The notes beneath the pieces were generated by a model. The model did no database searches. It was not told the origin of the DNA and saw only the letters and a list, made by a program, of their open reading frames with translations. Positions 454 through 8,221 of a stretch of 34,013 nt of DNA are shown piece after piece. The first letter of the stretch is position 1. Each line of letters starts with the position of its first letter. The stretch is from Bacteroidota bacterium (lineage in GTDB: Bacteria; Bacteroidota; Bacteroidia; Bacteroidales; VadinHA17). The translations under genes were made by a program, and so were the position numbers. The stretch covers positions 1-34,013 of the forward strand of contig DQWH01000190.1 in NCBI GenBank assembly GCA_011042635.1. Direction: 5' to 3'.

Positions 454-2556
454 CTAAGCCTCCTCGCGCCAGCCGTACGCTATCACAACCCGCACCTTGA
501 GCTTTGCGTTCAGGCCGAATCCGTCAATGTGTTCGTATTTGATGGGAATGCACTCGAAATAGTTGTGCCGCATAATTTCGGTACCCGGCGTCCCGTCGGT
601 GGTTTCAATGATCGACATGGCCCGGTCATGATCGTTGCCGGTAACGGTATTGTATACCCAGGCAGAAATATCCTGGCCCTCATTGTAATCGCAGGTGAGA
701 GTAACGGTCCTTTCTTCCAGGTTTACCTCAACGGCAGGTGTGAACCAGGTCCCGGTGGAAACCCCTTCAATCTCCACCAGCTTGTCGGTTTCCGGATTGT
801 AAGAATGCTCCCCTCCCAGTACACCGTCCCAGAAACAACCGGCCACATTGTCGGGAAGGCTGTTGTGCACCATGGTGAAACGGGTCCTGCCGTCGTTGCC
901 GGTTTCATAGCTTTCAGGCAGGTAGCTGAAAAAAATCCAGCGACTGGTTTCTGTTCCGGCCAGGTTTTTAATAATCACCGATGCATTACGGGTTACTGCC
1001 GAAGGATCGTCAAACCAGGCCTTGATATTGTTTGCGTCAGACTCATTGGTGGTTTCAAAAATCAGGGGATACTCCATGGTCAGGCCCGGTTCTTCATGAT
1101 AGACCAGCTCGCCGCTGCCACTGTATCCGTTCGGGGTGGTGATGCGTTCGGTTTCATGGCCAATGCTGTTGATAATCACCATCTTGTCAGTTGTTGATAT
1201 CCCTTCGATTTCCATTTCTGCCAGGTTGTTCAGAATATCCGGGAAATTCATGGTGTATCCTTCACCCAGGAGCCCGGAAATTTGCGATACATGCACGGTG
1301 TCAATTTCAATGCTACCGGTAAGCGTCCCGTCCACCTGCAAATTCCCTGCAAAATAGGCATTTCCCTGCCCGTCGATTTTCACCCGGTCGGTCCAGGAAC
1401 CTGAGTATGTCCTGTAATACAAGGGATATGCTGAATTAACCGTCAGGTTGTACCCGGAGGTGCTGGTTTGCAGGATCAACCCTTCTTCCCAGTTCAGGTT
1501 CACATTGTTTCCGTTTTCACCACGAAGATACAGAGAACCGGGAGAAAGGGCAGTCAGGTAATTATACGCCGGATTCAGAAGTTCCATTACCGGGGAGGTT
1601 TCTTCATCGTACAGTCGGAAAATATCGGCCCGCGGCCGGAATTCCGATGCCCATTCCGAGGATATGGCTAGAGCCAGGTGGTTCTGTGTCTGCCGGTCGT
1701 AATCGGGCATCCGGATGTGCAGGCCCGGTGCGGGAAAATCATTCATTACCGCCACATCCAGCAGGGCTTGCGGCTCATTGGTTCCTATGCCCAGCATGCT
1801 GTCCTTCCCGGTGATCCATCCTCCGTCACTCCCGAGTTGGATACTTACCAGCGTGGAGTCCTCCCCGCCGAAAACACCCAGGGTGTTTGGCCGGTCAATG
1901 TCGGTAAGGTAAGCGTCGTTGCCGATCAGCAGGTTTCGTCCGCCGGCTTCAAAATCGTCCGGCAGTTCGAGCTGGGTGGTGCCGGTTTCATTCCCGATCA
2001 GCACCTTTCCTGCCGTGTAGCTGATCCCGTCCGGAGTGTTGGTCCACACGGAAGGCAGCTCCACTTCATTGCCACGGCTGATGGATAGAAAATTTTCATT
2101 GAGAACCAGCTCCTGCAGTTCATTTTCAGGATCGGCATCGGCATCGTCGGTGTTTACCGCATCGCGTGCCAGCAAAGCATAAGGGACACTGAGTAGCTGA
2201 CTGGTTCCCATCAGTGTATAATCATTCCCACCAGTGGCATCCAGGGATAGTTCCAGGAAATAGCTGTGACCGGCCCAGTCGATGTTTCCGAGATCCCCGT
2301 TCAAAATGGTGCCGTTACCGATTTCCAGGCTAACCAGTCCCTGGTCATTGGTTTGCACCTGATGGGTTTCGGTAAATACCTCTGTTCCCGTAGGTGCATC
2401 CGCAAGGAGGCGGATTCTGAGGCTGACGTTGTGTCCGGCTAACGGATTCCCGGACGGATCCCGGATAACAGCCTGATAATGGATGGTTTCCGGCACCTGG
2501 GCGGTGAGTGCTGGCAGGATGAATCCGAAACCGATAAGCAATAGAAAACGTTTCAT
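454..2556 (-). CDS. Secreted protein with Bacteroidota surface-protein N-terminus and two tail-tube-like C-terminal domains
   Basis: A 700-residue protein. I choose the ATG at 2556 because MKRFLLLIGFGFILPALTAQ is a clean signal peptide; an ATG eight codons upstream would spoil it. Residues 20-135 (PETIHYQAVIRD, then LLSVPYALLARDA) match a module common at the start of Bacteroidota secreted repeat or tail-fibre-like proteins. Residues 140-440 are a long low-complexity beta-rich stalk. Residues about 447-570 and 593-700 look like two copies of one domain. Each starts EIEGxST and has an I-AW segment, a basic/acidic strand pair and a closing aromatic-KYE or SYE segment. That pattern resembles phage/T4 gp19-type tail-tube proteins. 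No T9SS tail follows. The gene is monocistronic. Function is unknown; a surface fibre or adhesin is my guess. Confidence 0.8.
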   Translation of the reverse strand: MKRFLLLIGFGFILPALTAQVPETIHYQAVIRDPSGNPLAGHNVSLRIRLLADAPTGTEVFTETHQVQTNDQGLVSLEIGNGTILNGDLGNIDWAGHSYFLELSLDATGGNDYTLMGTSQLLSVPYALLARDAVNTDDADADPENELQELVLNENFLSISRGNEVELPSVWTNTPDGISYTAGKVLIGNETGTTQLELPDDFEAGGRNLLIGNDAYLTDIDRPNTLGVFGGEDSTLVSIQLGSDGGWITGKDSMLGIGTNEPQALLDVAVMNDFPAPGLHIRMPDYDRQTQNHLALAISSEWASEFRPRADIFRLYDEETSPVMELLNPAYNYLTALSPGSLYLRGENGNNVNLNWEEGLILQTSTSGYNLTVNSAYPLYYRTYSGSWTDRVKIDGQGNAYFAGNLQVDGTLTGSIEIDTVHVSQISGLLGEGYTMNFPDILNNLAEMEIEGISTTDKMVIINSIGHETERITTPNGYSGSGELVYHEEPGLTMEYPLIFETTNESDANNIKAWFDDPSAVTRNASVIIKNLAGTETSRWIFFSYLPESYETGNDGRTRFTMVHNSLPDNVAGCFWDGVLGGEHSYNPETDKLVEIEGVSTGTWFTPAVEVNLEERTVTLTCDYNEGQDISAWVYNTVTGNDHDRAMSIIETTDGTPGTEIMRHNYFECIPIKYEHIDGFGLNAKLKVRVVIAYGWREEA

Positions 2557-4946: not shown

Positions 4947-5951
4947 ATGAACCAGGATCCTTTTTCCTTCCGTTCAGGGAACCTGCTGGTTTTTATCTGG
5001 GGGAAACGGGTTCCCCTCCTCATTCTTACCGGTATTGCCGCGGTTGTGTCGGCTGTTGTTTCCCTGCTGATCACACCCAAATATGCGTCTACGGTGGTTC
5101 TTTTCCCTTCTTCATCCACCTCGGTGTCAGAGGCTCTGTTATCCACCAGCCAGTTTGCCACCAACGATCTTCTGGAATTCGGCGAGGAGGAGGAAGTGGA
5201 AAGAATGCTGCAGATCCTGTATTCCGACCGGATCAGGCAGGAACTCGTGGACCGGTTCAACCTGTTTGACCATTATCAGATCGATCCGGATTCCAAATAC
5301 CGGTATTCTGAGCTTTATTCCGAAATGAACGATAATATTTCCTTCCGGAAAACCGAGTTCATGTCCATTGAGATCAGGGTGCTGGATACCGATCCCGGGG
5401 TAGCTGCCGATATGGCCAATACCATTGCAGCCCTGATCGATTCCACCATATACGATATGCAGCGTGAAAAGGCGCGGGAGGCTTTTTTGCTTGTAAAACG
5501 GGAATACGAAAACCTGCAGAACGAGATCAGAACTATGGAGGATTCTCTGGTCAGTTTACGGAAGCTGGGTGTGTACGATTACGAGGAACAATCAAAAGCA
5601 CTGAGCCGGGCCTATGTGAATGCCATGGCATCGGGGGATCAATCACTTGCCGGAGGGCTGGAAAAAAAGCTCCGGGAGCTGGCAGGATACGGCCAGGCCT
5701 ACCAGGGGTTGCAGGATTTTCTGAGGCTGGAAAAGGAAAGGCTCAGCCACCTGAAAACCATGTATCTCCAGGCGAAAGTCGATGCCGAGCAAACCCTGCC
5801 GCATACGTTTGTGGTATCGAAAGCCTGGGAGGCTGAAAAGAAAGCCTATCCCCGGCGGAGCATTATCGTGCTTTCGGCCATGCTCAGCACCTTTGTGCTG
5901 GCCCTGCTGTTGCTGGCCCTGATTGAAGGGATCAGAAACCGGAAATATTAG
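4947..5951 (+). CDS. Wzz-type polysaccharide chain-length protein
   Basis: A 334-residue inner-membrane protein with the Wzz/GumC architecture. TM1 lies at about residues 24-45 (LLILTGIAAVVSAVVSLLIT) followed directly by PKYASTVVLF. A large periplasmic region includes a coiled-coil stretch at about 165-290. TM2 is near the C-terminus (about 308-328), ending in a short basic tail. Members set the length or export of O-antigen or exopolysaccharide chains. There is no C-terminal tyrosine kinase domain. An O-antigen ligase/polymerase gene follows 9 bases later and a methyltransferase overlaps that, so the three form a tight unit for surface glycan assembly. No glycosyltransferases are in the window. 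Confidence 0.85.
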   Translation: MNQDPFSFRSGNLLVFIWGKRVPLLILTGIAAVVSAVVSLLITPKYASTVVLFPSSSTSVSEALLSTSQFATNDLLEFGEEEEVERMLQILYSDRIRQELVDRFNLFDHYQIDPDSKYRYSELYSEMNDNISFRKTEFMSIEIRVLDTDPGVAADMANTIAALIDSTIYDMQREKAREAFLLVKREYENLQNEIRTMEDSLVSLRKLGVYDYEEQSKALSRAYVNAMASGDQSLAGGLEKKLRELAGYGQAYQGLQDFLRLEKERLSHLKTMYLQAKVDAEQTLPHTFVVSKAWEAEKKAYPRRSIIVLSAMLSTFVLALLLLALIEGIRNRKY

Positions 5952-5960
5952 ATTCAACCG

Positions 5961-7427
5961 GTGAACCTTGCTATCCGAAACATACTGGTTTATCCGGCCG
6001 TGCTGCTTTTTCTGGCCGTAAACCTGTGGCTGATGACCCGGGATGTGTATGTGCTGAACCTGCTGCCGGTGGCCCTGCTGCTTGTGGTCATTGCTTTTCT
6101 TTCCCTCGACAGGCTGCTGCTGATCATTGTTTTTTTTACCCCTCTTTCCATTCCTCTGAAACACCTGGTGGGGGATATCGGAGTGGATCTGTTTCTTCCC
6201 ACCGAACCGCTGCTGGCAGGTGTCATGATCCTTTTTATACTAAAAGTGATCAGGGAAAAGAGTGCCGATCTGCATATCCTCCTTCATCCGCTGGCTGTGG
6301 TGATCTATATCTATCTGTTCTGGATGGTGGTGACCAGCCTGACCAGTACCCTGCCGCTGGTTTCCGTCAAGCACACCCTGGCGCGGATGTGGTTCGTTAC
6401 CGGGTACTTTTTTGTAGCGGCCCATGTGTTCAGGGATTTCAGGAACATAAAAAAATACCTCTGGGCATATATCCTGTCGCTGACTATAGTGATTTTCTAC
6501 ACCCTGTTCAAACAATATCAGTACGGACTTTTCAACCAGCAGGCCTCGCATTCCACCGTCCATCCCTTCTATAATGACCATACCGCATACGGAGCCGCTC
6601 TGGCGTTCCTCATTCCGGTTCTGGCCGGCTTTGTTTCTGGCCGGAACGGGAAAAAACCGCACAGGATCATCCCGGGGATGTTTCTGACGATCTTTCTGGT
6701 GGCCCTGGTGTTCTCTTATACCCGGGCGGCCTGGGTAAGCCTGGCGGCGGCTGTTGTGGTATTCCTGCTGATCAGGTTCAGGGTCTCACTCACATCGATG
6801 GTGGTGGTTTTGCTGACCGGCACGGCATTCCTGTTCATGTACCGCGCGGAGATCAAGATGAAACTGGAAGCGAATAAGGAAACTTCTTCCACCGATTTTG
6901 CCACCCATGTGCGATCGATCACCAACATTACAAGCGATGCATCGAATGCCGAACGGATCAACCGATGGAAATCGGCCTGGCGGATGTTCAGGGAAAAACC
7001 GGTGTACGGCTGGGGCCCCGGAACATACCAGTTCAATTATGCGGGTTTCCAGATGAAAAAGGAAAGAACATACATCAGCACCAATTTCGGGGATCTGGGG
7101 AATGCACACAGCGAGTACATGGGCCCGCTCTCGGAATCGGGATTCCCCGGCTTATTGACTGTGCTGGCCCTGGTCGGTGTATCGGTTTTTACCGGTTTGC
7201 GTGTGATGCGTCAGGCCAGGGATAAACCGGTCAGCACCCTGGCACTGACCCTGTTGCTGGGGCTGGTGACGTATTTTACCCACGGGTTCCTGAACAATTT
7301 TCTGCATACCGACAAGGCATCGGCTTTGTTCTGGGGATTTATGTCCATGCTGGTGGCTCTGGATATCTATCATACCCGTGGGATATCCCCGGAGACTGCG
7401 CAGGAAGGAAATAATCCTGATTCATGA
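5961..7427 (+). CDS. O-antigen ligase/polymerase family membrane protein
   Basis: A 488-residue protein starting at a GTG, with about 10-12 membrane segments across most of its length. A large extracytoplasmic region at about residues 285-390 includes RINRWKSAWRMFREKPVYGWGPGTYQ. In the Wzy_C/WaaL family the corresponding region carries the R...W..A motif, G-W-GxG, and a downstream H in NAHSEYMGPLSESG. The protein either ligates or polymerises undecaprenyl-linked glycan; sequence alone does not decide which. The GTG start puts the frame 9 bases after the Wzz-like gene. Its TGA overlaps the ATG of the methyltransferase (ATGA at 7424-7427), which suggests translational coupling. Confidence 0.85.
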   Translation: MNLAIRNILVYPAVLLFLAVNLWLMTRDVYVLNLLPVALLLVVIAFLSLDRLLLIIVFFTPLSIPLKHLVGDIGVDLFLPTEPLLAGVMILFILKVIREKSADLHILLHPLAVVIYIYLFWMVVTSLTSTLPLVSVKHTLARMWFVTGYFFVAAHVFRDFRNIKKYLWAYILSLTIVIFYTLFKQYQYGLFNQQASHSTVHPFYNDHTAYGAALAFLIPVLAGFVSGRNGKKPHRIIPGMFLTIFLVALVFSYTRAAWVSLAAAVVVFLLIRFRVSLTSMVVVLLTGTAFLFMYRAEIKMKLEANKETSSTDFATHVRSITNITSDASNAERINRWKSAWRMFREKPVYGWGPGTYQFNYAGFQMKKERTYISTNFGDLGNAHSEYMGPLSESGFPGLLTVLALVGVSVFTGLRVMRQARDKPVSTLALTLLLGLVTYFTHGFLNNFLHTDKASALFWGFMSMLVALDIYHTRGISPETAQEGNNPDS

Positions 7428-8221
7428 ATAAACGAAGATACCTCAGGAACTGGGAGGGGATTGCCCGTGCCGATCCGTTATGGTCCATCTGTACCCATCC
7501 TGACCGGAAAGACGGGAAATGGGGCAGGGAGGAATTTTTCGAAACCGGAAGGGGGGAATGGGGAAGCCTTGTAAGGTATCTGTCGGAACAAAATATTGCC
7601 CTGCCACGGAATGGGAAGGCCCTGGATTTTGGTTGTGGTGTGGGAAGGTTGAGCCGGGCCATGGCCGGGTATTTTTCTACGGTGACCGGGGTGGATGCAT
7701 CGGCTGCTATGATCGGTCTGGCCCGGGAATACCATGCCGGTGAAAATAGCACCATCCGTTTTGTGCATCATGACCAGCCCGGTTTGTCCCTGTTCGGGAA
7801 TAACACCTTTGATTTTATTCTTTCTGTCCTCGTACTGCAGCATATTCCTGTGGAAGAAGGGAAAAATTATCTGCGGGAGATGGCGAGGGTACTGAAACCG
7901 GGAGGGATTCTTCTGTTTCAGGTGCCGGTGGCCGACAGGAGAAAACGGCCTGTGTTTGACCGGTTGCGCACGGTGTTACGAATCAGGGAACGGCTGGCCC
8001 TGGCAGGGATAGGACAGGGATTTCGGATGGAGATGTTTGTGTACCCGGAGGATGAAGTGGAAGCTGTTCTGTCCGGTGTATCCACCGGGATCATTCACCG
8101 GGTTTATACCAACCATACGGAACCCGGATACGCAGGGAAGTTTCAGGTCATATCCCCTGAACAGGCCGGAGATTATGTGAGTGTGATGATGGTGGGAAAG
8201 AAACGGGATACGACAGACTAA
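7424..8221 (+). CDS. Class I SAM-dependent methyltransferase
   Basis: A 265-residue cytoplasmic enzyme with a Rossmann-type SAM-binding core. Motif I is ALDFGCGVGRLSRAM (about residues 66-80) and motif II ends in GVDASAAMI. Motif IV is FDFILSVLVLQHIP, and the post-IV segment is MARVLKPGGILLFQVP. The acceptor cannot be read from sequence; overlap with the O-antigen ligase gene suggests glycan or lipid-carrier modification. Its stop codon overlaps the stop of the convergent SpoIIE phosphatase gene at 8218-8221, leaving no room for a terminator. Confidence 0.85.
   Translation: MNKRRYLRNWEGIARADPLWSICTHPDRKDGKWGREEFFETGRGEWGSLVRYLSEQNIALPRNGKALDFGCGVGRLSRAMAGYFSTVTGVDASAAMIGLAREYHAGENSTIRFVHHDQPGLSLFGNNTFDFILSVLVLQHIPVEEGKNYLREMARVLKPGGILLFQVPVADRRKRPVFDRLRTVLRIRERLALAGIGQGFRMEMFVYPEDEVEAVLSGVSTGIIHRVYTNHTEPGYAGKFQVISPEQAGDYVSVMMVGKKRDTTD

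Follow-up and report, generated by a model that had tools for sequence, protein, structure and literature searches.

To our knowledge, tube domains occur only in virus tails and in the machines derived from them, and narrow keyword searching of open papers turned up no other use of the tube fold. Trimeric phage fibres use the S74 domain as their chaperone. In T5 pb6 a duplicated tube domain gives trimeric, pseudo-hexameric rings, which stack, and hub and spike proteins originated by a similar duplication (PMC5717097). In the Legionella protein Lcl, which is found on the cell surface, the C-terminal Lcl_C domain (DUF1566) forms a trimer on a stalk (PMC11162425).

Here we describe a protein encoded in a 34,013-nucleotide stretch of a Bacteroidota genome (contig DQWH01000190.1, referred to as the window), in which predicted tube domains are joined to a fibre. 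The gene lies on the minus strand (454-2556, start codon ATG at 2556) and encodes an exported, modular fibre-like protein of 700 amino acids; its assignment is based on the open frame and on a dN/dS below 1 against the orthologue from the same genus. A putative signal peptide, identified by eye (residues ~1-20, MKRFLLLIGFGFILPALTAQ; 2497-2556), is followed by a Bacteroidota N-terminal head module (residues ~21-131, ...YQAVIRD...GTSQLLSVPYALLAR; 2164-2496) with weak similarity to the Ig-like Big_1/MG2 families. The shaft (residues ~132-417; 1306-2163) carries GIGTNEPQALLDV and GNAYFAGNLQVDGTLTG motifs of the GIGTxxP type. Motifs of this type precede tail-fibre tips and are also present in paralogues tipped by S74 or Lcl_C. 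A neck (residues 418-446, IDTVHVSQISGLLGEGYTMNFPDILNN; 1219-1305), strongly conserved in the alignment of five family members (A1), leads to tube-like domain 1 (residues ~447-575; 832-1218) and tube-like domain 2 (residues ~590-700; 457-789). Both were assigned from matches to PF06841 and from profile matches, domain 2 also from a fold match in VIA, and together they span 457-1218, the region singled out in an earlier note made from the DNA alone. The signal-peptide-like start and a head module common in Bacteroidota agree with the secreted Bacteroidota protein proposed there. Scans with Pfam and NCBIfam reported no type IX (T9SS) sorting domain at the C terminus.

The earlier note had also recognized gp19/Hcp-like tube domains at the C terminus, and this proposal is borne out by profile comparisons. 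When the C-terminal region (283 residues) was scanned in isolation, the sole Pfam family reported was PF06841, the T4 gp19 tail tube, in two stretches (E 2.4e-4). The score is 21.4 bits for the region and 18.0 bits for the whole protein, both under the curated cut-off of 28.2, so that neither is a family match by this threshold. Sub-cut-off matches were obtained with the C-terminal regions of four of the five family members, one member being without any match; the best stretch falls in half 1 of the window protein and in half 2 of its relative L003, and each half gives a weak PF06841 match when scanned by itself. We then compared each half with a custom gp19 alignment of 28 true tube genes from the same family and order. 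In profile-profile alignments half 1 scores 28.9 (E 2.6e-4) and half 2 scores 23.4 (E 2.5e-3), both aligning in the same register over gp19 columns up to ~110. The maxima of 500 column shuffles per half are 21.9 and 21.1, respectively, with none of the 500 as high as the real score for either half, and the reversed profiles score 13.6 and 15.9. Each domain thus has statistically supported homology to gp19, above all 500 shuffles. The correspondence runs through a tryptophan-bearing helix and a turn to an 'AWPxK'-like strand. Domain 2 is short and leaves little space for a long loop present in gp19. A PDB profile search with alignment A1 gave no match, and the window protein escaped the gp19 family search, so that other diverged cases may be overlooked. 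Taken together, the profile comparisons show at the sequence level that both halves are related to the gp19 tube family. The window protein differs from gp19 proteins in matching below the cut-off, in its duplication, export and fusion to a head and shaft, and in the absence of a detected sheath gene from its genome.

The two halves had further been read as duplicates, a claim that stands in part. The motifs N/D-I-x-AW (residues 510 and 629), x-GTE (533 and 657) and x-P-x-x-YE (546 and 670) fall on conserved gp19 positions, namely the helix tryptophan, the beta-turn and the 'AWPxK' strand, and the halves occupy the same gp19 columns. Direct resemblance between them is only marginal at the sequence level. 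Within the window protein, half against half gives E 0.001 in blastp and p = 0.005 in Smith-Waterman alignment (1000 shuffles), but in the four relatives the Smith-Waterman p ranges from 0.05 to 0.79. A profile-profile comparison of the two halves gives P 0.055-0.07. Duplication is therefore supported via the gp19 family, which each half matches independently, and not directly. The EIEGxST motif, taken in the earlier note as the shared start of both domains (residues 449 and 595), had to be discarded as evidence of duplication: it lies 61 residues ahead of the AW motif in half 1 and 34 in half 2 and is thus out of register, and the match between the halves is unconserved in the relatives and coincidental.

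An AlphaFold2 model was computed from an alignment of only the five family members and is of low confidence (mean pLDDT 46); padding of this alignment with gp19 sequences was rejected as circular. In a Foldseek search of the PDB with this model, the top 35 rows consist almost entirely of entries for Hcp, tail-tube, major-tail, baseplate or injection-system proteins, and many of the named matches in a viral structure library are tail-tube proteins. In the low-confidence model, domain 2 is a beta-sandwich flanked by one helix, as in tail-tube and Hcp proteins. In VIA it aligns at Z 9-10 to many chains of Hcp and tail-tube proteins, among them Hcp3 (Z 10.4, 99 residues, 2.6 A), Hcp2-Hcp3 of Bacteroides fragilis (Z 9.8) and the PVC, AFP and pyocin tubes (Z ~9). 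The model thus shows a predicted tail-tube/Hcp fold for domain 2. This likeness in fold is shared with Hcp/TssD of type VI secretion, including the Bacteroides fragilis proteins; the window protein differs in giving no sequence match to Hcp and in carrying, besides domain 2, another tube-like domain, a shaft and a signal peptide. The structural resemblance expected for residues 440-700 is hence seen for domain 2. Domain 1 modelled by itself loses its helix (mean pLDDT 45) and shows no distinct match in fold: Foldseek ranks two tube proteins first for this model, at a low probability of 0.4-0.5, and the best VIA row (Z 6.3) is an unrelated protein. The tube assignment of domain 1 rests on sequence.

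Low model confidence, Pfam scores below threshold and the weak direct similarity of the halves in the relatives would all fit C-terminal domains that are unrelated beta-sandwiches merely resembling the tube fold. We regard this as improbable, given that both halves match the gp19 family independently and in the same register, that the Pfam scan of the 283 C-terminal residues gave gp19 and no other family, and that the top of the structure search is almost exclusively made up of tube folds.

Tube domains are normally found in phage or injection particles, and the protein might be left over from a phage or contractile injection system, or be an accessory component of one, that leaves the cell by export or on lysis and works together with the particle. 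The genomic setting speaks against this. The next genes in the window encode CvpA, TyrS, Wzz-like, O-antigen ligase, methyltransferase, SpoIIE-like, EF-P, DUF3108 and TsaD-like proteins, so that the neighbours scanned are housekeeping and polysaccharide genes, consistent with the earlier remark that no phage genes lie nearby. Neither a sheath gene (PF04984) nor a true gp19 (PF06841) tube gene was found in the five genomes that carry the tip, the window genome being ~81% complete, and scans of IMG/VR found no viral contig encoding a relative; matches in phage records were set aside as chance matches only. Together with the signal peptide, read by eye, and the cellular paralogues, this makes a particle-associated role very improbable. 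Within the window, the Wzz-like, O-antigen ligase and methyltransferase genes lie consecutively at 4947-8221, forming a small surface-polysaccharide cluster. A tRNA-Arg gene (anticodon CCT, 290-362) is located directly downstream of the fibre gene, and the orthologue in L100 has this tRNA after it as well.

The paralogues place the protein in a large family of cellular fibre-like proteins. The head module occurs in all five carrier genomes with 4-15 copies each; in the window protein it lies behind the signal peptide read by eye. Among the paralogue C termini that were read we find Peptidase_S74 (L076), Lcl_C (L070, and more weakly L074 and L087) and Fib_succ_major (L073). The window protein shares the head with these Bacteroidota proteins and differs from them by its tip, a pair of tube domains. 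Two proteins of one genome, L003 (340-2208) and L087 (1426-3345), have 58% identity in the shaft over 229 residues and 52% in the head over 184, yet L003 ends in tube domains and L087 in an Lcl_C-like domain. This shows that the tip is swappable on a common head and shaft. In Bacteroidota, one head and shaft can thus be fitted with different tips of phage type (S74, Lcl_C, tube). In the genome of the window itself, the contig L076 encodes two adjacent fibre-like proteins (3-1247 and 1351-2982), of which the second combines the head module with an S74 chaperone tip and the first has an end similar in sequence.

The paralogues are probably trimers, since Lcl_C is trimeric on the stalk of Legionella Lcl and S74 chaperones trimeric phage fibres. 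Lcl resembles the window protein in its layout of N-terminal region, stalk and C-terminal tip; it differs in having a collagen stalk and a DUF1566 tip and no tube domain. With T5 pb6 and the gp27/VgrG hubs the protein has in common two tube domains per chain; in pb6, to which it is likened by domain layout, these build a tube protein, and here the pair would instead sit at the tip of a fibre for which we infer trimerisation. We propose that the window protein is an exported, phage-fibre-like member of a large modular Bacteroidota family with signal peptide, head, shaft and exchangeable tip, in which the tip of this branch would be a pair of tail-tube-fold domains, distant kin of T4 gp19, the contractile-injection tubes and Hcp. 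If the shaft trimerises, three chains would bring together six tube domains, and a trimer with two tube domains on each chain would amount to a pseudo-hexamer like that of T5 pb6. Given the duplicated domain and the probably trimeric stalk, the reasoning that holds for pb6 and VgrG predicts a ring here too. At the end of the fibre such a pseudo-hexameric ring, like those of pb6 and the gp27/VgrG hubs, may work beyond the cytoplasm as a head for binding or stacking, and not as a component of an injection machine. As with trimerisation and the ring, we infer surface display and a role in adhesion or binding. Against this explanation stand the PF06841 scores under the cut-off, the low confidence of the models, the absence of a distinct fold match for domain 1 and of a reported T9SS sorting domain. 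On balance we favour it as a whole, a trimeric fibre tipped, for binding, by tube domains in a pseudo-hexameric ring, by a slight preponderance.

The earlier note had raised a secreted, chain-forming or pilus-like use of the fold; in such a tube or filament the rings would stack end to end. Phages and injection systems do build tubes by stacking members of this domain family, and the tandem fusion pb6 stacks as well (PMC5717097), and the two domains of the window protein are likewise fused in tandem. However, each carrier genome has a single such gene, the two domains terminate a long protein of head and shaft, the short domain 2 has little room for the long loop of gp19, and the sheath PF04984 was undetected in all five carriers. 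Chain formation is thus conceivable, though a ring tip is more probable, and we consider the filament unlikely.

The fibre could also be trimeric with a tip of purely structural function, for example as a cap aiding the folding of the shaft, and not adhesive. In one paralogue the C-terminal place of the tube tip is taken by the S74 chaperone, which would fit such a role, but the other tips of the family, Lcl_C and Fib_succ_major, look more like binding domains, and tube domains are, as far as we know, unheard of as chaperones. A structural tip therefore seems doubtful to a similar degree as the filament, and we retain the binding ring as the preferred reading. Whether the tail-tube fold has moved from phages and injection machines to an exported cellular fibre, where a pseudo-hexameric tip ring would bind, cap or thread some extracytoplasmic target, is a nearly even question in our judgement, leaning somewhat to the negative. 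If true, a pair of tube folds tipping an ordinary exported fibre would mean that the fold can serve outside injection machines. The fold is known and so is this kind of fibre protein; their combination was not found described.

Single-sequence and profile searches detected the tube-domain tip in 5 of 117 genomes of the window's family. Besides the window genome, these are a member of the same genus (93% identity) and members of three other genera (39, 36 and 31%), and the gene is present as a single copy in each. The family yielded two more weak matches to gp19 (L024, L025), which seemed to be unrelated. Beyond the known members, samples of 395 genomes from the class, 395 from the phylum and 295 from the order returned only noise, two order-level matches proving on inspection to be unrelated proteins. 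A scan of genome contigs yielded SpSt-1193, the record from the same genus, a second time, together with two Saprospiraceae proteins whose match is confined to the N-terminal part. In these searches the tube tip is rare and restricted to the family.

Comparison with the same-genus orthologue (L002) gives dN 0.030 and dS 0.124 for the tip, which is under purifying selection. The head (first ~125 residues, 2164-2556) is only about half identical (57%) to that of L002, the rest of the protein being ~93% identical, and dS is 1.7, near saturation, in the head and 0.12-0.33 elsewhere. A close tip next to a head with near-saturated dS suggests exchange of the head through recombination. The shaft, close over the rest of its length, has a short stretch at 1507-1581 (residues 326-350) that is diverged to 65% nucleotide identity and is perhaps another recombination segment.
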